DNA from: Alphaproteobacteria bacterium
GTDB lineage: Bacteria > Pseudomonadota > Alphaproteobacteria > Acetobacterales > Acetobacteraceae
DNA: 34,609 nt
Assembly (NCBI GenBank): GCA_026400775.1
Contig: JAPLOK010000199.1
Location: 1 to 34,609 of the forward strand
Direction: 5' to 3'
Shown here: one piece after another, positions 1,222 to 30,114 of the stretch
Layout: every line of letters starts with the position of its first letter
How positions within the stretch are numbered: the stretch's first letter is position 1
Position numbers and translations under genes: made by a program
The notes under the pieces: generated by a model
The model's database searches: none
What the model saw: the letters and a program-made list of their open reading frames with translations, nothing else
What the model was told of the DNA's origin: nothing

Positions 1222-2460
1222 TCAGCGGATCAACGAGCAGCCGCCTTCGGCCAGCGGGCGGAATGCCTCTTCGGCGCTCACGGTCTGCAGCACCTTGTAG
1301 TAGTCGTAGCGACCGCGGGATTCCTGTGGCGTCTTCACCTCGCAGAGATAGGCGGGGTGCATCTTGCGGCCATCGGCGCGGATGGTGCCGGCACCGAAGG
1401 CGTCATCATCGGTGGGCATCGCCTTCATGCGGTCGACCACGGCGCGGCCATTGGCCTTGGCGGCGGCGACGCCGAGATCGGCGCAGGTCTTGAGGTAGTG
1501 CAGCGTCGCCGAATAATCGCCCGCATGGCTCATCGCCACCGGCATATCCGCGCCCGAAAGCCGAAGGATGCGCTCGGACAGGCCGCGCGTGCGCGCATTG
1601 AGGTCCCAGTAAAAGGTGTTGGCGCAGACTAGGCCCTGTGCCGTTAGCAAGCCCAGCGCATGCACATCGGTGATGAACATCAGCAGCGCGGCCACGCGAA
1701 TGCCGCGGCGCGTCAGGCCGAATTCGCCGATCTGCTTGATGCTGTTGATGGTGTCAGCGCCCGCATTGGCCAGCCCGATCACCTGCGGCCGCGCGGCCTG
1801 CGCCTGCAACAGAAAGGAGGAGAAATCGGTGGTGCCGGGGAAGGGGTGTCGCACCCGGCCGATGACGCGGCCGCCCGCGGCTTCCACGAAGCCGGTGGTG
1901 TCGCGGTCCAGCGCATGGCCGAATGCATAGTCGGCCGTCAGGAAGAACCAGTTCTGCCCGCCCGCGCGCACCGTGGCCAGGCCCGCGACCTTGGCGAGCA
2001 TGTAGGTGTCATACACCCAATGGATGGTGTTGGCGTTGCAGGAGCGGCCGGTCAGATCCGAAGTCGCTGTCGAGGTCGGGATGCAGACCTTGTTGCGCTC
2101 GGCAGCCACCTGCGAGACGGCGAGTGCGACCGACGATGCCGCCAAGTTCAGGATCATGTCGACGTTTTCGTTGTCGATCCAGCGCCGCGCGATGGCGACA
2201 CCGGCATCCGGCCGGTTCTGGTGGTCGGCATTGACGAATTCGACATTGAAACCGCGTTGGCCGAATTCCTGGATGGCCAGCCGCGCGGCAGCCAGCGAAT
2301 TCGGCCCGTTCAGGTCACGGAAAGGCCCCGAGAAATCGGTCAGCATGCCGATCTTGATGGTGTTGGCGGCCTGCGCCTTGGCCGAGCGATAGGGCAGGGC
2401 GCCCCAGACGGGGGCGGTGGCGGCGGCGCCGAGAACGGCGCGGCGGGTCGTATCGGTCAT
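1222..2460 (-). CDS. Branched-chain amino acid-type ABC transporter substrate-binding protein, copy 2
   Basis: 412-aa ORF, MTDTTRRAVLGAAATAPVWGALPYRSAKAQAANTIKIGMLTDFSGPFRDLNGP..., Tat-like signal, periplasmic type-1 binding fold, paralogous to its neighbours. Confidence 0.93.
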   Translation of the reverse strand: MTDTTRRAVLGAAATAPVWGALPYRSAKAQAANTIKIGMLTDFSGPFRDLNGPNSLAAARLAIQEFGQRGFNVEFVNADHQNRPDAGVAIARRWIDNENVDMILNLAASSVALAVSQVAAERNKVCIPTSTATSDLTGRSCNANTIHWVYDTYMLAKVAGLATVRAGGQNWFFLTADYAFGHALDRDTTGFVEAAGGRVIGRVRHPFPGTTDFSSFLLQAQAARPQVIGLANAGADTINSIKQIGEFGLTRRGIRVAALLMFITDVHALGLLTAQGLVCANTFYWDLNARTRGLSERILRLSGADMPVAMSHAGDYSATLHYLKTCADLGVAAAKANGRAVVDRMKAMPTDDDAFGAGTIRADGRKMHPAYLCEVKTPQESRGRYDYYKVLQTVSAEEAFRPLAEGGCSLIR

Positions 2461-2587
2461 GCTGGGTTTCTCCTGGACGTGAAGGGGCGGGCGATCTGGC
2501 GTCGCCCTGCCCCGGATGGTGAAACATTCGGGTCTAATCGAATCGGTCTGGAACAGATTGATCCGTGAATCAGCCCCGCAAAATCAT

Positions 2588-2622
2588 TACAGCATGAGCC
2601 ATAAACACCGGATCATGCTGTA
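2588..2622. repeat. Perfect 10-bp inverted repeat with 15-nt loop (REP-like extragenic palindrome or hairpin)
   Basis: TACAGCATGA (2588-2597) is the reverse complement of TCATGCTGTA (2613-2622). Confidence 0.7.
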
Positions 2623-2680
2623 GTCACTATGCGAGGTGTACACCGCTTCGGTGATTCCACCTTCGCGGATCACGCTCTAG
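2609..2680 (-). repeat. Two diverged direct copies of a 15-bp motif, CTANAGCRTGATCCG (minus strand), in the SBP2-SBP3 intergenic region
   Basis: Plus-strand CGGATCATGCTGTAG (2609-2623) and CGGATCACGCTCTAG (2666-2680), 13/15 identical; the second overlaps the SBP3 stop codon. Confidence 0.6.
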
Positions 2681-3887
2681 CGCACCAGCGCGCAATTCCC
2701 CGCGGCCATCGGGCGAAATGCCTCTTCGGCCGGCGTGGTTTGCAGGAGCTGGTAGAAGTCCCAGGCGCCGCGCGATTCCTGCGGCGTCTTGACCTGGAAC
2801 AGATAGGCCGGGTGCAGCTTGCGGCCATCGGGGCGAATGGTGCCGGCGCCAAACGCGTCGTCATCCGTGGGCATCGCCTTCATGCGCGCGATGGTGGCGG
2901 CACCATCGGCCTTGGCGGCGGCGTGGTCGCGGAATAGCAGCCTGCATGGCCCATGGAAGGCCGATTGCCGCCCGGCGTGCCATTGGCGACGATGCGGCCC
3001 GAGACGGCGCGGGTGCGGTCGTTCAGGTCCCAGTAGAAGGTTTCGGTCAGCACCGAGCCGCCGGCCGTCTGCAGCCCGAGGCTGTTCACGTCATTGACGA
3101 AGACCAGCAGGCCGGCCACGCGCTGGCCGCGGCGCATCAGGCCGAATTCGCCCGCCTGCTTGATGGCGTTGATGGCGTCCACGCCGGCATTCGCAATGCC
3201 CACCACCTGCGCGCGGCTCGCCTGCGCCTGGAGCAGGAAGGAGGAGTAGTCCGTGGTGCCCGGGAAGGGGTGCCGCACGCTGCCCACGACGCGCCCGCCG
3301 GCCTGGCGGACGAAATCCATCGTCTGGCCTTCCAGGCTGTGACCGAAGGCGTAGTCGGCGGTAATGAAGTACCAGCTCTGCCCGCCGGCGCGCACCAGCG
3401 CGGCGCCCGTACTGCGCGCCAGCATCCAGGTGTCATAGGTCCAGTGGATGGTGTTGGGGCTGCACTGCCCGCCGGTCAGTTCGACGGTGGCGGCCGTGCT
3501 GTTGAGGTAGACCTTGTTGCGCTCGCGCACGACGGTGTTCACGGCCAGCGCCACGCCCGAGGAGGGGACGTCCATGATGACATCCACGCCGTCGCGGTCG
3601 ATCCACTGGCGCACCAGGTTCACGCCGACATCGGGGCGGTTCTGGTGGTCGGCCACCAGCACTTCCACGTTGAAGCCGCGATTGCCGAAATCCTGCACAG
3701 CGGTGCGGGTGGAGACCACACTGGTGGGGCCGGAAATGTCGCGGAAGGGCCCGGACATATCGGTCAGCACGCCGATGCGGATGGTGTTGGCCGCACCCTG
3801 CGCGCGGGCATGGGTGATGGGGCTTGCGGCACCCAGCGCGATCGCGCCCGTGCCAGAGAGGAAGTTGCGGCGACCTGTGTCGATCAT
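2677..3887 (-). pseudogene. Branched-chain amino acid-type ABC transporter substrate-binding protein, copy 3, disrupted by a ~34-nt deletion/frameshift
   Basis: N-terminal part MIDTGRRNFLSGTGAIALGAASP... (start 3887) runs to ...SMGHAGCYSATTPPPRPMVPPPSRA* at 2880. The C-terminal part continues in another frame as HAAAKADGAATIARMKAMPTDDDAFGAGTIRPDGRK...CALVR* ending at 2677. The LHYLK..ADLGV segment present in both paralogs is missing. Confidence 0.85.
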
Positions 3888-11781: not shown

Positions 11782-14456
11782 ACGCGATGCCGCCGCCCCC
11801 CATCGCCTTGACCGTCAATGGCCAAACGCATGCGCTGCCCTTGCCGCCGGCCACGCGCCTTTCGGCCGCTTTGCGCGACACGCTGGGCCTGACCGGCACC
11901 AAGATCGGCTGCGATGCCGGTGATTGTGGCGCCTGCACCGTGCTGCTGGATGGCGCGCAGGTTTGCGCCTGCATGGTGCCGGTGGCGCAGGCCGCGGGCG
12001 CGCAGGTCACAACGGTTGAGGGCCTGGCCGGCACGCGTTGGGGTCAGGCGCTCGCCGCGTCTTTCCTGCACCATGGCGCGGCGCAATGCGGCATCTGCAC
12101 GCCGGGCATGGTGATGGCCGCGGCCGAGCTTCTGACGCGCGACGCGACGCCCGATGAAGCAGCCGTGGAAGCGGCCCTGGGGGGCGTGCTATGCCGCTGC
12201 ACCGGCTACCGCAAGATCACCGATGCGGTGCTGGACGCGCATCGTTTCCTGGACACGCCGCCGGTGCCGGAAGTCGGTGCGGTCGGCGCGCGCATCCCGC
12301 GCCTGGATGGCCCGGCAAAGCTGGACGGCAGCGAGCGCTACGGCGCCGATGCCGCGCCTGCTGACGCGCTGTGGCTGCGCCCGATCCGTAGCCCGCACGC
12401 GCATGCGCGGTTCACCCTGCCGGACATTCCGCAGTTTTTGGCAGCGAACCCCGGCGTCGAGGCGGTGCTGACCGCGCGCGACGTGCCTGGCCGCAATGGC
12501 TTCGGGATCTACCCGCACATCAAGGATCAGCCCGTCTTTGCCGAGCACACGGCGCTGTATCGCGGTGATTGCGTGGCGGCCCTGGTGGGCGCGCGCGATG
12601 CCGTGCTGCGCGCGGAATTGCCGGTGGCTTGGATGCCGCTCCCGGCGCTGGACGTGAACGCTGCGCGGGCCGATGGCGCGCCGCTGCTGCACGCGCATCT
12701 GCCAGGCAATATCCTGACCACAGGGCGCGTGGTGTCTGGCGCCGCCGCACCCGCCGCGCACACAGCGCGCATCGCCGTGCAGACCAGCTTCGTCGAGCAC
12801 GCCTATCTCGAGCCCGAGGCCGGCTACGCGCAGCGCATCGGCGATGTGGTCGAAGTCTTCGCCTCCACCCAGGCCCCCTACATGGACCGCGCGGAAGTGG
12901 CCGGCGTGCTGGGCATCCCTGAGGACCGTGTGCGTATCATTCCATCCGCCTGTGGCGGAGGTTTTGGCGGCAAGCTGGATGTCGCGGTGCAGCCCATGCT
13001 GGCGGTTGCGGCCTGGCTGCTGAACAAGCCGGTGCGCACGATCTACGCCCGCCCCGAATCCATGCTGAGTTCCACCAAGCGCCACCCTGCTTCGATCACC
13101 GCTGAAGCGGGCTGCGACGCGGCCGGACGGCTCACGCATATCCAGTTCGCTGGCGACTACGACACCGGCGCCTATGCCAGCTGGGGGCCGACCGTGGCGG
13201 GCCGCGTGCCCGTGCATGCCAGTGGCCCGTATCGCGTGCCGCAGGTTGCAGCGGTGGCGCGCGCGGTGCACACGCACAACCCGCCCTCCGGCGCATTCCG
13301 CGGCTTCGGCGTGCCGCAGGCGGCCATCGCGCAGGAGGCGCTATGGGACCAGTTGGCGGACGCGGCCGGTCTGGATCGGCTAGAGTTCCGCGTGCTGAAC
13401 GCGCTGCGTGCCGGCGACACGACAGCCACCGGGCAACGCGTGGAGCATTCGGTCGGCCTGCTCGCCTGCCTCGAAGCGCTGCGCCCGCATTGGCAGGCGC
13501 TGCGTGCGCGCGCCGCCCACGAAAACGCCAGCGGCGGCACACTCCGCCACGGCGTGGGCGTGGCCTGCATGTGGTACGGCATCGGCAATACCGGCATGTC
13601 CAACCCATCGACCATGCGGCTGGAATTGACGCCCGACGGGCGGCTGACCTTCTTCAACGGCGCGGTGGATATCGGCCAGGGCAGCACCACCGTGCTGCAC
13701 CAGATCGCGGCCGAGGCGCTGGGGCTGCCGGTCGCGGCCTTTGCGCATGTCAATGGCGACACCTTCCTGACGCCCGATGCCGGCAAGACCAGCGCCTCGC
13801 GCCAGACTTTTGTGAGTGGCCGCGCGGCCTTCGAGGCGGGGCGCGCGCTGCGCGCCGATATCCTGCGTCGCGCCAATGCCGGTGATGATGCGGTGCTGTC
13901 ACTGGAAGCTGGCGTGCTGAGTGTGAATGGCGTGGCACTGCATCTGCACGAGACGCTGCGCGCCGAGGGCCGCTTCGACCCGCCCACCGTGCCGCTGGAC
14001 GAAAACGGCCAGGGTATTCCCTATGCCACCTATGGCTTCGCAGCCCAGATCGCGGCACTGGCGGTCGATACGCGGCTCGGCACCATCAAGCTGCACCGCA
14101 TTGTCGCCGCCCATGATGTCGGCCGCGCCATCAACCCGACGCTGCTGGAAGGCCAGATTCATGGCGGCATCGCGCAGGGCATCGGGCTGGCACTGATGGA
14201 GGAATACATCCCCGGCCGCACCGAGAACCTGCACGACTACCTGATCCCCTCCATGGGCGATGTGCCGCCAATCGACACCATCCTGATCGAGGACCCCGAA
14301 CCGCTCGGCCCCTGCGGCGCCAAGGGCGTGGGCGAGCCCGCGCTGGTCGCGACCGCGCCTGCGATCTATTCGGCGATCCGCGACGCGACCGGGGCGGTGA
14401 TCACCCGCGTGCCGGCCTTGCCGCATCGCGTTCTGGAGGCGCTGCGCCGTGGATAG
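11778..14456 (+). CDS. Molybdopterin-dependent hydroxylase, N-terminal [2Fe-2S] domains fused to the Mo-binding domain
   Basis: 892 aa: GTKIGCDAGDCGACTVLLDG, QCGICTPGMVMAAAELL, GVLCRCTGYRKI, then Mo domain with GGGFGGKLDVAV, SGAFRGFGVPQA and GAKGVGEPALVATAPAIYSAI. ATGA overlap with the FAD subunit. Confidence 0.92.
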   Translation: MNAMPPPPIALTVNGQTHALPLPPATRLSAALRDTLGLTGTKIGCDAGDCGACTVLLDGAQVCACMVPVAQAAGAQVTTVEGLAGTRWGQALAASFLHHGAAQCGICTPGMVMAAAELLTRDATPDEAAVEAALGGVLCRCTGYRKITDAVLDAHRFLDTPPVPEVGAVGARIPRLDGPAKLDGSERYGADAAPADALWLRPIRSPHAHARFTLPDIPQFLAANPGVEAVLTARDVPGRNGFGIYPHIKDQPVFAEHTALYRGDCVAALVGARDAVLRAELPVAWMPLPALDVNAARADGAPLLHAHLPGNILTTGRVVSGAAAPAAHTARIAVQTSFVEHAYLEPEAGYAQRIGDVVEVFASTQAPYMDRAEVAGVLGIPEDRVRIIPSACGGGFGGKLDVAVQPMLAVAAWLLNKPVRTIYARPESMLSSTKRHPASITAEAGCDAAGRLTHIQFAGDYDTGAYASWGPTVAGRVPVHASGPYRVPQVAAVARAVHTHNPPSGAFRGFGVPQAAIAQEALWDQLADAAGLDRLEFRVLNALRAGDTTATGQRVEHSVGLLACLEALRPHWQALRARAAHENASGGTLRHGVGVACMWYGIGNTGMSNPSTMRLELTPDGRLTFFNGAVDIGQGSTTVLHQIAAEALGLPVAAFAHVNGDTFLTPDAGKTSASRQTFVSGRAAFEAGRALRADILRRANAGDDAVLSLEAGVLSVNGVALHLHETLRAEGRFDPPTVPLDENGQGIPYATYGFAAQIAALAVDTRLGTIKLHRIVAAHDVGRAINPTLLEGQIHGGIAQGIGLALMEEYIPGRTENLHDYLIPSMGDVPPIDTILIEDPEPLGPCGAKGVGEPALVATAPAIYSAIRDATGAVITRVPALPHRVLEALRRG

Positions 14457-15888
14457 GACCGCCCAATTCGGCGCGAGGGAAGGCAATGACGGCATCGTCC
14501 GCTGCGATGCCTGCCCCGTTCTCTGCCGCATCCGCCCCGGCCGCGCCGGCGCCTGCGACCGCTACGCCAACCGCGGTGGCGAGTTGGTGCGCGTGGACCC
14601 GCTGGTGCTGCTCTCGCGCGCCGAAACCGCCGTGCCCTTGCTCGAAGCCGACAGCACCTTCGTCACCGCCATCGGCGCCGGCACCACCTACCCGGACTAC
14701 AAGCCCGCGCCCTTCATCGTGGAATCGCAACACCAGGGCATCGACACCATCACCGTCGTGACCGAGGGAATCTTCAGCTATTGCGGCCTGAAGGTGAAGA
14801 TCGACACCGACCGGCATCTCGGCCCGGAAACCGCGCCCGTCCGCCACAAGGGCGAGCAGATCGGCCATGTCACCACCGCCGAATATGGCAGCCAGATGCT
14901 CTCGATCGGCGGTGTGCACCACCTGACCGGCGGCTCCAAGAAGGAAGGCAGCGTGACCTGTGCGGCGATGCTCGCACTCGCGTCCAAGGAAGCGCTGGAA
15001 GTCACCATCGATGGCGGCGCCACGCTGGTCATCCAGGCGGGAAAGCCGCCTATCGTGAATGGCGCGCCGGAGCGGCGCATGCGTGTGGGTTGCGGCAGCG
15101 CCACCATCGGCATCTTCGCGCAGCAATGGCAGGGCCATGTCGACGAAGTGATCGTGGTGGACGACCACATCACCGGCGTGCTGACCGAACACCAGGCCGG
15201 GAAATGCCTGGACATGCGCGCGGCGGGCATCCGCGTGCGTGGCCGGCGCTCCACGCCCGGTCGCTATTTTCAGGTGGCGCATCCGGGCACCGGCTGGGGC
15301 GGCACTGACATCACCGACCCGCTCGCCATCATCGAATCCATTGACGCCAAGACCGCCTGGCCCGGTCTGCGCCTGCTGATGACCAGCACCACCGGCGAGG
15401 ATGCCGCCTGGTTCGAACTGGACGAAAGCCTCCGCCCCACACCCGCGCGCATGCCCGACGCCATCGCCGCCACTGTCGCGCGCATCGGCGAGAATTGCGA
15501 ACCTGCGCTGACCTCCGTGCTGTTTATGGCTGGCGCCGGCGGCAGCTTGCGCGCCGGTGTGACCGACAACCCCATTCTGCTCACCCGCGCCGTGCAGGAT
15601 GGCCGCGTGCGCATCACCATGGGCGGCGCGCCGTGCATCCTGTGGCCCGGCGGTGGCATCACCATCATGGCCGATGTGCTGGATCTGCCGGCCGGCGCCT
15701 TCGGTTACGTCCCAACGCCTGCGCTGGTCGCACCACTCGAATTCACGATGCCGTCCGCGCTCTATGCCGCGATCGGCGGGCATCTTGGCGCCGCCTTGCT
15801 GCTGGAGACAGTGCTGGCGGAATACGCAGCCAGCGCCCTCGTGGACCCCGCGCGCGGAGACCTGCCATGGCGTGGCAGCCCGGCCTGA
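14449..15888 (+). CDS. 6-hydroxynicotinate reductase-like iron-sulfur protein
   Basis: GTG start overlapping the upstream stop by 8 nt: GIVRCDACPVLCRIRPGRAGACDRYANRGGELVRVDPLVLL...GTTYPDYKPAPFIVESQHQGIDTITVVTEGIFSYCGLKVKIDTDR...GGVHHLTGGSKKEGSVTCAAMLAL. Family recognised by pattern; adjacency to enamidase and a Mo hydroxylase supports it. Confidence 0.75.
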   Translation: MDRTAQFGAREGNDGIVRCDACPVLCRIRPGRAGACDRYANRGGELVRVDPLVLLSRAETAVPLLEADSTFVTAIGAGTTYPDYKPAPFIVESQHQGIDTITVVTEGIFSYCGLKVKIDTDRHLGPETAPVRHKGEQIGHVTTAEYGSQMLSIGGVHHLTGGSKKEGSVTCAAMLALASKEALEVTIDGGATLVIQAGKPPIVNGAPERRMRVGCGSATIGIFAQQWQGHVDEVIVVDDHITGVLTEHQAGKCLDMRAAGIRVRGRRSTPGRYFQVAHPGTGWGGTDITDPLAIIESIDAKTAWPGLRLLMTSTTGEDAAWFELDESLRPTPARMPDAIAATVARIGENCEPALTSVLFMAGAGGSLRAGVTDNPILLTRAVQDGRVRITMGGAPCILWPGGGITIMADVLDLPAGAFGYVPTPALVAPLEFTMPSALYAAIGGHLGAALLLETVLAEYAASALVDPARGDLPWRGSPA

Positions 15889-16741
15889 ACACCCGCACGC
15901 TCCCCGATGGCCGCCTTCTGATCGAGGAAGGCCCGATCCATCTCGTCATCGGCATCGAGGGCAGCCCCGGCGCGGTGCGCGCCGCACAGCAAGCCGCGGT
16001 GCAGCGCATGAACGGCCTGCTCGCCGCGCTGTGCGAGGAACTGCCCATCCTGCGCACGCCGCTGGCCGATGCCATGCCCGCTTTGCGCCACCCCGTCGCG
16101 CGCCGCATGGCCGAAGCCTGCTGGCCGCACCGCATCGGCTTCATCACGCCCATGGCCTGCGTCGCCGGCGCCATCGCCGAATACGCGCTGCAAGGCATCA
16201 CCGACCTGCCCGGCATCACGCTCGCGCATGTCAATAATGGCGGTGACATCGCGTTGCACCTGGCGCCGCGCGCGCAGCTGCGCGTGGGCCTTTGCGCCAA
16301 CCTCGCTATGGCATGGCGCTGATCCGCGCCGAGGACGGCATCGGCGGCGTGGCCACTTCCGGCTGGCCGGGCCGCAGCTTCTCACGCGGGATAGCCGACG
16401 CGGTGACGGTGCTGGCCACGCGCGCCGCCGATGCGGATGCGGCGGCGACCATCATCGCCAATGCCGTCGATGCCGATCACCCGGCCGTGCTGCGCCGCCC
16501 GGCGCGAACGCTCGATGCGGACAGCGACCTTGGTGACATACCCGTGACTGTGGAGGTGCGAAACCTGCCGCCGCCGCTGGTGTTGCTGGCGTTGGAACGC
16601 GGCGCGCGGGTGGCCGAACGCCTGCTCTCCCGCGGACTGATCCGGGCTGCGATGCTGCGGCTGAAGGGACAGAGCCTGATCGTGGGTGACATTCCTGTCA
16701 CTCCGCTGTTGCTGGACAATGCCGTGCCCGGACTGCGATGA
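15867..16741 (+). pseudogene. UPF0280 family protein (ApbE superfamily), frameshifted
   Basis: Frame 1 from ATG 15867: MAWQPGLNTRTLPDGRLLIEEGPIHLVIGIEG...VNNGGDIALHLAPRAQLRVGLCANLAMAWR*. The protein continues in another frame: RYGMALIRAEDGIGGVATSGWPGRSFSRGIADAVTVLATRAADADAAATIIANAV...GDIPVT. A 1-nt deletion near 16290-16320 (or a sequencing error) explains it. Confidence 0.8.
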
Positions 16742-16768
16742 TCAAGCGACGAAAGCTGGGGATGTGTG

Positions 16769-17425
16769 ATGCCTGACGACAATGCGTCGCAGCACTTGAA
16801 ACGTCGCCTTCTGGTGGTGAAGGGCGCGGCATTGGGCACCCTCGCGGGCACCGCGCAGGCGCAGGGGCCGAAATCCGGCTCGCGCGCGCCCGCGCCCAAC
16901 GGCATCACCGATGCCGACCCGCAGGACCCGCCGAACCAGGGCCGTGGCGGCGGCGCCCAGCAACGTCCCGGTGGTGTGACGGATGCCGACCCACAGGACC
17001 CGCCAGGCCAGGGCCGTGGCGGCTCCGCGCAGCGTCCCGGCGGTGTCACGGATGCTGACCCGCAGGACCCGCCGGGCCAGGGCCGTGGCGGCTCCGCGCA
17101 ACGTCCTGGCGGTGTGACGGATGCCGACCCGCAGGACCCGCCGGGCCAGGGCCGTGGTGGCAGTGCGCAGCGGCCTGGCGGTATCTCGGATGCCGATCCG
17201 CAGGACCCGCCGGGCCAGGGCCGGGGCGGCAATGCGCAGCGCCCTGGTGGCGCGCCGCCGCAGCAGGGCATGAGCGACGCCGATCCGACCGATCCGCCTG
17301 GCCAGGGCCGCGGCTCCGCCCGCCCGCCAATGCCCCAGCAGCGCCAAACCGGCGTGACCGACGCCGATCCGCAGGACGCCCCGGGCCAGGGCCGTGGCGG
17401 TCGCGGCCCGCTGAAGCCGACCTGA
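16769..17425 (+). CDS. Low-complexity tandem-repeat protein with a signal-like N-terminus and DADPQDPPGQGRGG repeats
   Basis: MPDDNASQHLKRRLLVVKGAALGTLAGTAQAQ followed by seven DADP(Q/T)D(P/A)P(G/N)QGRG units; 28 nt downstream of the UPF0280 gene, same strand. Confidence 0.75.
   Translation: MPDDNASQHLKRRLLVVKGAALGTLAGTAQAQGPKSGSRAPAPNGITDADPQDPPNQGRGGGAQQRPGGVTDADPQDPPGQGRGGSAQRPGGVTDADPQDPPGQGRGGSAQRPGGVTDADPQDPPGQGRGGSAQRPGGISDADPQDPPGQGRGGNAQRPGGAPPQQGMSDADPTDPPGQGRGSARPPMPQQRQTGVTDADPQDAPGQGRGGRGPLKPT
16901..17404 (+). repeat. Coding tandem repeat, core unit 69 bp (23 aa), seven units
   Basis: DAD codons begin at 16910, 16982, 17051, 17120, 17189, 17276 and 17360; spacings 72, 69, 69, 69, 87 and 84 bp. 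Confidence 0.9.
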
Positions 17426-17427
17426 CG

Positions 17428-19065
17428 CTACGCCTTGCGCGCCTGGTCATAGGGCGCATAGGGCGGGTGTTCGCCGATCGCGGACATGTCGATCTCGACC
17501 AGCACCGGACCTGGTGTCTCGAACGCGCGCGCCAGTGTCGGGCCGAAGTCCGCGATGCTGGAGACGCGCATGCCCGGCAGGCCGGCCAGCGCCGCCAGCG
17601 CCATCAGGTCGGGGCCTTGCAGGTCGTGGTAGAAGCGCCGGCCGGCGGCGAAATCCTGGATGTGGCGGATCACCCCGTAGCCGCGGTCATTCATCACCAT
17701 CACCACCAGTTCGGCGCGTTCCTGCACCGCTGTCCACAGCTCGGGCAGGTTGATGGCGAAGCCGCCATCACCACACATCGCCAGCGCCTTGCGCCCGGGC
17801 GCGCCCAGGGCTGCGCCGATGCCCAAAGGCAGCCCAGGCCCGATCGCGGCCCCCACCGGATGCACGGCATCACGCGGGCCGAAGACAGGGAAGATCCGGT
17901 TGCCCCAGGCGGAGTTGCTGATGGTGATGTCGCGCACGAAGAGCGCATCGCGCGGCATCACCGCGCGCAGCGTTTCGGGGAAGGTTTCATAGGGACCGAG
18001 GCCGGCGGCATAGGCGGCGAAGGCGCGCGGCTTCAGCGCTGCCAGATCGGCCTGCAGCGCGGGCGGGCGGGGCGACAGCGCATCGGCAATGGCCTGCATC
18101 GTGAGCGCGGCATCGCCCTGGATGAAGATGTCGGGCGCGTAGGTGCGGCCGCGCGCGGCGGCGTCCACATCGACATGGATCAGCGGTCGCGGCAGTGGGA
18201 GCGCAAAATCCTGGGTTTCATGGCCGCGTAGTCGGCTGCCTACGACCAGCATGGCGTCACAGGTCGCGTAGAAATCGCGCACCGGCGCGCTGCCATTGCC
18301 GTGCAGGCCGCCCAGGCTTCGCGGGTCGTCCTCGGCCACGATGCCGCGGCCATTCCATGAATGCACCGCGCCGAAACCCAGATCGAGCAGGCGCATCGCG
18401 GCATCACGCGCGCCCTTGGCGCCATTGCCAAGCCAAAGCATCGGGCGCTCGGCGCGCGACAGGAGAGAGATTGCGGCGGCGAGTGCCGCGGGGTCGGGCG
18501 GCATGGGCGCCGGGATGTGCAGCGCGAAGGATGACCAGTCCGGGCGAGGCACTTCGGCGCGTTGCAGGTCGATGGGGATTTCAACGCTGATCGGGCCCAT
18601 GGGCGGGGTCAGGGCGGCGGTGGCGGCGGCGGTCAGGACGCCCAGCGCCTGATCGGCCGCGCGGATGCGCAACGCCTGCTTGCACACGGCAGAGAGCATC
18701 GCCGTCTGGCCCGGCACGTCATGCACCGTGCCCATGTCGCGGTCGATGAAGCGCGTCGCGGTCTGGCCGGTGATATGCAGCACGGGTGAGCCTGCGAAGC
18801 GCGCTTCCACCAGGCCCGGCATGGCGTTGGCGGCACCCGGACCGGTCGAGCTGAACAGCACGCCAAGCCCACCGGAGGCGCGTGCATAGGCGTCCGCCAT
18901 ATGCGCGCCGCCCATCTCGCCGCGCGCCATCACATAGCGTACCGCATTGCGCTGCGAGAGTGCGTCCAGCATCGGGATATTGTGCACGGAGACGATGCCG
19001 AAGGCGGTGCGCACGCCGATGGAGGCGATGAATTCGGCGACCAGGTCTCCGACGGTGTAGGTCAT
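17428..19065 (-). CDS. Thiamine pyrophosphate-binding enzyme (acetolactate synthase/benzoylformate decarboxylase-like)
   Basis: MARGEMGGAHMADAYARASGGLGV...STGPGAANAM; C-terminal ThDP motif MCGDGGFAINLPELWTAVQERAELVVMVMNDRGYG. Confidence 0.9.
   Translation of the reverse strand: MTYTVGDLVAEFIASIGVRTAFGIVSVHNIPMLDALSQRNAVRYVMARGEMGGAHMADAYARASGGLGVLFSSTGPGAANAMPGLVEARFAGSPVLHITGQTATRFIDRDMGTVHDVPGQTAMLSAVCKQALRIRAADQALGVLTAAATAALTPPMGPISVEIPIDLQRAEVPRPDWSSFALHIPAPMPPDPAALAAAISLLSRAERPMLWLGNGAKGARDAAMRLLDLGFGAVHSWNGRGIVAEDDPRSLGGLHGNGSAPVRDFYATCDAMLVVGSRLRGHETQDFALPLPRPLIHVDVDAAARGRTYAPDIFIQGDAALTMQAIADALSPRPPALQADLAALKPRAFAAYAAGLGPYETFPETLRAVMPRDALFVRDITISNSAWGNRIFPVFGPRDAVHPVGAAIGPGLPLGIGAALGAPGRKALAMCGDGGFAINLPELWTAVQERAELVVMVMNDRGYGVIRHIQDFAAGRRFYHDLQGPDLMALAALAGLPGMRVSSIADFGPTLARAFETPGPVLVEIDMSAIGEHPPYAPYDQARKA

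Positions 19066-27330: not shown

Positions 27331-30114
<2,784 letters not shown>

Follow-up and report, generated by a model that had tools for sequence, protein, structure and literature searches.

Behind a catabolic operon of the window, by which we mean the whole stretch of 34,609 nucleotides analysed here, lies an open reading frame (ORF) whose predicted product is a leader followed by tandem repeats. We asked whether this ORF is a gene, to what family its product belongs, and what its repeats might be for.

The repeat ORF and its coding character

The ORF runs on the forward strand from an ATG at 16769 to a stop codon at 17425 and encodes 218 residues, among which G, P, Q, D, A and R predominate. 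A GTG stands one codon 5' of the ATG, and GGGGA (16758 to 16762, forward strand), 6 nt before the ATG, is a plausible Shine-Dalgarno sequence. The sequence-only reading that preceded this work had described an N-terminus KRRLLVVKGAALGTLAGTAQAQ, which is correct as given, and seven units of the form DADP(Q/T)D(P/A)P(G/N)QGRG, the central ones spaced by 69 bp. All seven were located on the forward strand: unit 1, DADPQDPPNQGRG, at 16910 to 16948; units 2 to 5, each DADPQDPPGQGRG, at 16982 to 17020, 17051 to 17089, 17120 to 17158 and 17189 to 17227; unit 6, DADPTDPPGQGRG, at 17276 to 17314; and unit 7, DADPQDAPGQGRG, at 17360 to 17398. The DADP motifs start at the first nucleotide of each unit (16910, 16982, 17051, 17120, 17189, 17276 and 17360), and their successive distances are 72, 69, 69, 69, 87 and 84 nt, three of them thus having the spacing that had been claimed. 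Tandem Repeats Finder (TRF) likewise reported a 69-bp array of 4.9 copies at 16905 to 17247 on the forward strand (87% matches, score 463). Against the seven units observed, 2000 codon shuffles yielded none. Elsewhere in the window, a 75-bp in-frame tandem duplication (27342-27491, 98% identical) lies near the start of a valyl-tRNA synthetase-like ORF (27331-30114).

The G+C-rich composition, an opposite strand that is open as well (264 aa) and the lack of a family match would all be expected if the ORF were spurious and its repeats were simply expanding. The substitution pattern, in contrast, is that of a coding sequence. Compared with the close orthologue of a neighbouring species (G008), the ORF differs at 4, 5 and 28 first, second and third codon positions over 155 codons, so that third positions hold 28 of the 37 base differences (binomial p 1.7e-7), and differences among the seven units themselves are also chiefly in third positions (18/12/80). 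Since the differences in both comparisons fall mainly in third positions, the ORF is, on this codon-level evidence, a real gene under purifying selection. The codon-position bias rules out the spurious-ORF reading, to which homologues of the same architecture in many genera and a conserved leader are also opposed, and we give it hardly any credence.

An unnamed family of repeat proteins

Searches with the window protein returned no family from Pfam or NCBIfam at E values up to 10, no match in PHROGs and no PDB chain at E values up to 1; the earlier reading would have been refuted by a match to a well-described repeat family, and none appeared. Absence of homologues from all relatives, which would have spoken against a gene, was not what we found: whole-genome searches detected relatives in each of the eight further genomes of the genus, which named loci place among the Rhodovarius-type Acetobacteraceae, in some genomes of the taxonomic family and, twice, in other families of the class. 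Of 300 genomes sampled from the taxonomic family, 45, belonging to 15 genera, carry the repeats; of 20 better-assembled genomes, 18 have unlinked repeat copies. At the window's own locus the relatives have 3 to 8 units, and thus the unit number, a comparison the earlier reading had proposed, differs between species. The 531 units collected conform to [TS]DxDPxD[GA][PA]GxGRG, with D, D, P, D, G and G conserved at about 100% and R at 99%, a conservation that is partly imposed by the search expression, but not at P5 or D7. The Asp residues and the Arg of the unit are about equally constant. From the sequences compared, the repeat proteins are an unnamed bacterial family. One 385-aa protein with an SRRSFL leader and about ten TDxD...GxG repeats (L043, G038:C44) has no JmjC gene that could be seen nearby; the JmjC gene of that genome and another repeat gene both lie on contig C10 (L175).

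A Tat-like leader

Residues 1-31 (16769 to 16861, forward strand) comprise KRRLLVVK, a hydrophobic stretch and AQA/Q, with a putative cleavage site. The motif KRRLLVVKGAALGTLAGTAQA, presumably cleaved before Q, has the two arginines followed by hydrophobic residues, the hydrophobic stretch and the putative cleavage site of a Tat signal. R12 and R13 are invariant in an alignment of 13 proteins, and an RRx[hydrophobic]2 leader is found in 107 of 114 relatives linked to a JmjC gene. Like Tat-exported proteins, the repeat proteins have L-[GS]-R-R-L-L-V-L-R, a hydrophobic stretch and then AxA or a lipobox, and SRRSFL is the corresponding form in other families; unlike Tat-exported proteins, they have only repeats after the leader and no cofactor-binding domain. 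An AlphaFold model of the window protein (mean pLDDT 48.9, pTM 0.13) shows no order beyond the leader helix. The family-conserved RR leader, the hydrophobic stretch, AQA and the disorder of the model past the leader helix support the earlier suggestion of an exported repeat protein, and we infer from the leader sequence that the window protein is exported by Tat. Outside the Roseomonas group, repeat proteins or short partner proteins at several loci (L168-L171, L180, L194 and L196) have an extra motif before RR, such as TLRDEDIVS, RLTDDDI or SLNDSDIQT, which is possibly a recognition sequence for an enzyme.

Repeat genes accompany a JmjC_2 oxygenase

Paralogues in the same genomes, having the family unit and the same RR leader, are encoded directly upstream of a gene for a JmjC_2 (PF08007) 2-oxoglutarate oxygenase. 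The window's own genome has three tandem repeat copies in this position (G000:C70, L031), where its sole close JmjC_2 copy (2369-3486) is split by a frameshift; no other JmjC_2 gene of this genome was among the matches listed at 1e-10. Because the UPF0280 and binding-protein genes of the window are also split, the frameshifts of this assembly are likely to be assembly or sequencing errors.

When the close JmjC_2 clade was defined by E below 1e-45, it was present in 40 of the 300 genomes of the taxonomic family, all 40 of which carry repeats, and in none of the 255 repeat-less genomes; in 39 of the 40, the oxygenase gene is directly preceded, on its own strand, by a repeat gene. Across these 300 genomes, with their 15 repeat-bearing genera, the co-occurrence has a Fisher p of 1e-44 if relatedness is ignored. 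Five of the 45 repeat genomes do not have an intact close oxygenase: one has a weak repeat match (G016), two are incomplete (G207 and G266), in one the oxygenase is a fragment (G314), and one, 97% complete, is without a close oxygenase (G137).

The same linkage was seen in a separate collection scan, in which 80 named loci were gathered by oxygenase similarity alone. Repeat genes lie directly upstream of the oxygenase gene at 73 of these (72 recognized by the repeat pattern and one, L130, by eye) and are not adjacent to it at seven; the pattern matched nowhere else within the 80 loci and gave no match when 660 kb of shuffled sequence were scanned. When a distant oxygenase was used to search the whole class, 12 places were found in addition to the seed, including one in the window's own genome. 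The other 11 are from other alphaproteobacterial families, and nine have TDxD-repeat proteins with an RR leader (SRRSF-type or similar) within 1.5 kb, one (L171) has a more diverged repeat protein and one (L172) has none. Two oxygenases at 37-38% identity (L194 and L196) have, close to their genes, short proteins in which an RR leader is combined with a TDND motif. As a control, more distant JmjC_2 matches were counted by eye, and four of 73, all in one genus, were within 5 kb of a repeat gene. In one genus (G126:C7, G182:C1, G290:C7 and G259:C23), a second, distant JmjC_2 gene flanks or adjoins the same repeat cluster.

A SapC-family gene (PF07277) lies divergently upstream at 24 of the 80 loci, several of which end at contig edges, and on this count SapC was rejected as an obligatory third part. 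The gene does bear on another explanation, in which the exported repeat polymers carry no modification and either bind a cation, Ca2+ or another, by way of DxDPxD or act as hydrophilic spacers. The oxygenase would then be linked to them for a different reason, such as modification of a shared partner (SapC, for example) or a use of the repeat protein that is limited to scaffolding. The conserved acidic DxDPxD core, the disordered model and the SapC-family gene agree with such a role. However, SapC is found at a minority of loci, as compared with repeat genes at 73 of 80; the known calcium-binding repeats (RTX, TSP3, EF-hand and dockerin) gave no Pfam match at E values up to 10; and the GxGRG half of the unit is conserved as much as the acidic half, so that cation binding alone is not a sufficient explanation. 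We regard this explanation as rather unlikely. Genes of the family almost always accompany an oxygenase of a protein-hydroxylating type, which suggests chemical modification of the repeats ahead of export.

The partner enzyme

The Pfam JmjC_2 domain was recognized in the partner enzyme with 94.4, 91.4 and 87.4 bits against a cut-off of 22, and the HxD...H iron triad (H155, D157 and H218) is invariant in 10 sequences including the distant family. The nearest solved proteins by sequence are NO66 and MINA, then YxbC and YcfD, and an AlphaFold model of the oxygenase (pLDDT 79.5) has the same nearest structures. NO66, MINA and YcfD are protein hydroxylases. Sequence and predicted fold together suggest that the partner enzyme is an Fe(II)/2-oxoglutarate hydroxylase of the protein-hydroxylating type. 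The order of secondary structure in the model hints at an RRE-like, leader-binding domain, and profile searches for RRE or PqqD homology of the oxygenase C-terminus gave nothing significant.

One could envisage that the oxygenase is an ordinary ribosomal-protein hydroxylase, similar to NO66 or YcfD, and that the repeat genes are passengers held in place by operon inertia, given that ribosomal proteins are modified by the closest solved relatives. Co-occurrence is complete, however, and the pair recurs in several families of the class despite strongly diverged repeats, while linkage to repeats is mostly absent for the distant JmjC_2 paralogues; we therefore find this improbable, and favor the repeat proteins as substrates.

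The neighborhood of the window gene

The window gene itself is not adjacent to any oxygenase gene. On its 5' side, in the same direction, lies a gene (14449 to 15888, forward strand) that we take to be a probable 6-hydroxynicotinate reductase gene; its product had no Pfam family above the cut-off and no NCBIfam match. Between the two is a UPF0280-type gene (15867 to 16741, forward strand; NCBIfam NF003322), which is frameshifted in the assembly into ORFs 15867-16322 and 16313-16741 and has an intact reading frame of 295 aa in the neighboring species (G008, L055). The convergent neighbor (17428 to 19065, reverse strand) encodes a thiamine-diphosphate enzyme, as identified by Pfam and NF005470. 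A substrate-binding-protein gene at 2677-3887 is also seen as two overlapping ORFs (2677-2883 and 2880-3887), probably through a frameshift.

The surroundings of the gene could mean that its product works for the neighboring catabolic operon, for instance by assisting nicotinate-type catabolism in export or at the cell envelope. The reductase/UPF0280 neighborhood recurs in the window's own genus where assemblies allow (L050-L056), and the place behind the reductase and/or UPF0280 gene is kept in genomes of the Rhodovarius type as well as in a second genus (g69; L182, L187, L191, L192 and L193). In other genera, by contrast, unlinked repeat copies occupy quite different loci, and the window sequence and the oxygenase-linked copies are one family, which leaves the operon-accessory role a small probability. 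In three genomes (L181, L184 and L189), unlinked repeat genes adjoin a gene for a conserved, repetitive-looking protein of 936-994 aa.

Discussion

The reading we favor, and consider probable, is that the product of the window gene, a disordered repeat protein exported by Tat, belongs to a family that offers many sites to a JmjC_2 Fe(II)/2-oxoglutarate oxygenase as its substrate and co-evolves with it. In each repeat the enzyme would hydroxylate one conserved residue, which may be an Asp or the GxGRG Arg. The reaction would take place in the cytoplasm, since Fe(II) and 2-oxoglutarate are available there, and the modified protein would then leave through Tat, a route that fits modification before export. 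In most species one to three of the putative substrates have their genes immediately 5' of the oxygenase gene, with at least one further gene elsewhere; the window protein would be an unlinked substrate of this kind, on which the oxygenase acts in trans. Because its gene is not adjacent to an oxygenase gene, this assignment rests on family membership. For the modifying enzyme that one looks for near the gene of a precursor of a ribosomally synthesized and modified peptide (RiPP), the oxygenase is a candidate, and its gene adjoins the family copies (39 of 40 genomes and 73 of 80 loci), not the window copy. Outside the membrane, the product would most likely be a hydrophilic, possibly metal-chelating polymer of the surface or periplasm, although this is a guess.

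Precedent for a JmjC-type enzyme that acts on an adjacently encoded ribosomal precursor may be found, by analogy, in the biphenomycin-type RiPP clusters, whose JmjC-type or cupin-like hydroxylases BipG, BpmG and PbsQ act on a precursor residue, Orn derived from Arg (PMC12707348, PMC12257519). As in those clusters, a bacterial JmjC-type 2-oxoglutarate oxygenase is encoded here beside a ribosomally made, and in this case putative, substrate. The biphenomycin-type precursors, however, are short and become antibiotics through cross-linking and cleavage by several enzymes, whereas the repeat proteins are long, with 3-8 units and a Tat-type leader, and mostly no other maturation enzyme is seen. With NO66, MINA and YcfD/RoxA the partner enzyme shares the Pfam JmjC_2 domain, the invariant HxD...H and, in its model, the overall fold; those enzymes modify ribosomal proteins, whereas the oxygenase clade described here keeps company with repeat-protein genes. 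RRE-like folds have been described in JmjC proteins of PF08007, with bacterial homologues in RiPP-like contexts, in passages that name neither repeat proteins nor Alphaproteobacteria (PMC12710340). Literature searches for JmjC with SapC or repeats, and for Cupin_4 with RiPP, returned nothing relevant.

Taken further, the data could describe a widespread alphaproteobacterial system that has so far been undescribed. A single JmjC_2 oxygenase would serve several Tat-exported DxDP/GxGRG proteins, both linked and dispersed, and hydroxylate each of their repeats; the extracytoplasmic polymer so made, with its many hydroxylations, would be for bacteria what hydroxylated collagen or EGF repeats are, in kind, elsewhere. 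On this broader proposal we are evenly divided. If it is true, an entire clade of bacterial JmjC_2 oxygenases that has no assigned targets would acquire a substrate class, and enzymes of this type would act on exported repeat proteins, beyond ribosomal proteins and short antibiotic precursors. Repeat-wise hydroxylation would then be predicted in cultured bacteria, namely Roseococcus, Rhodovarius and Neoroseomonas.
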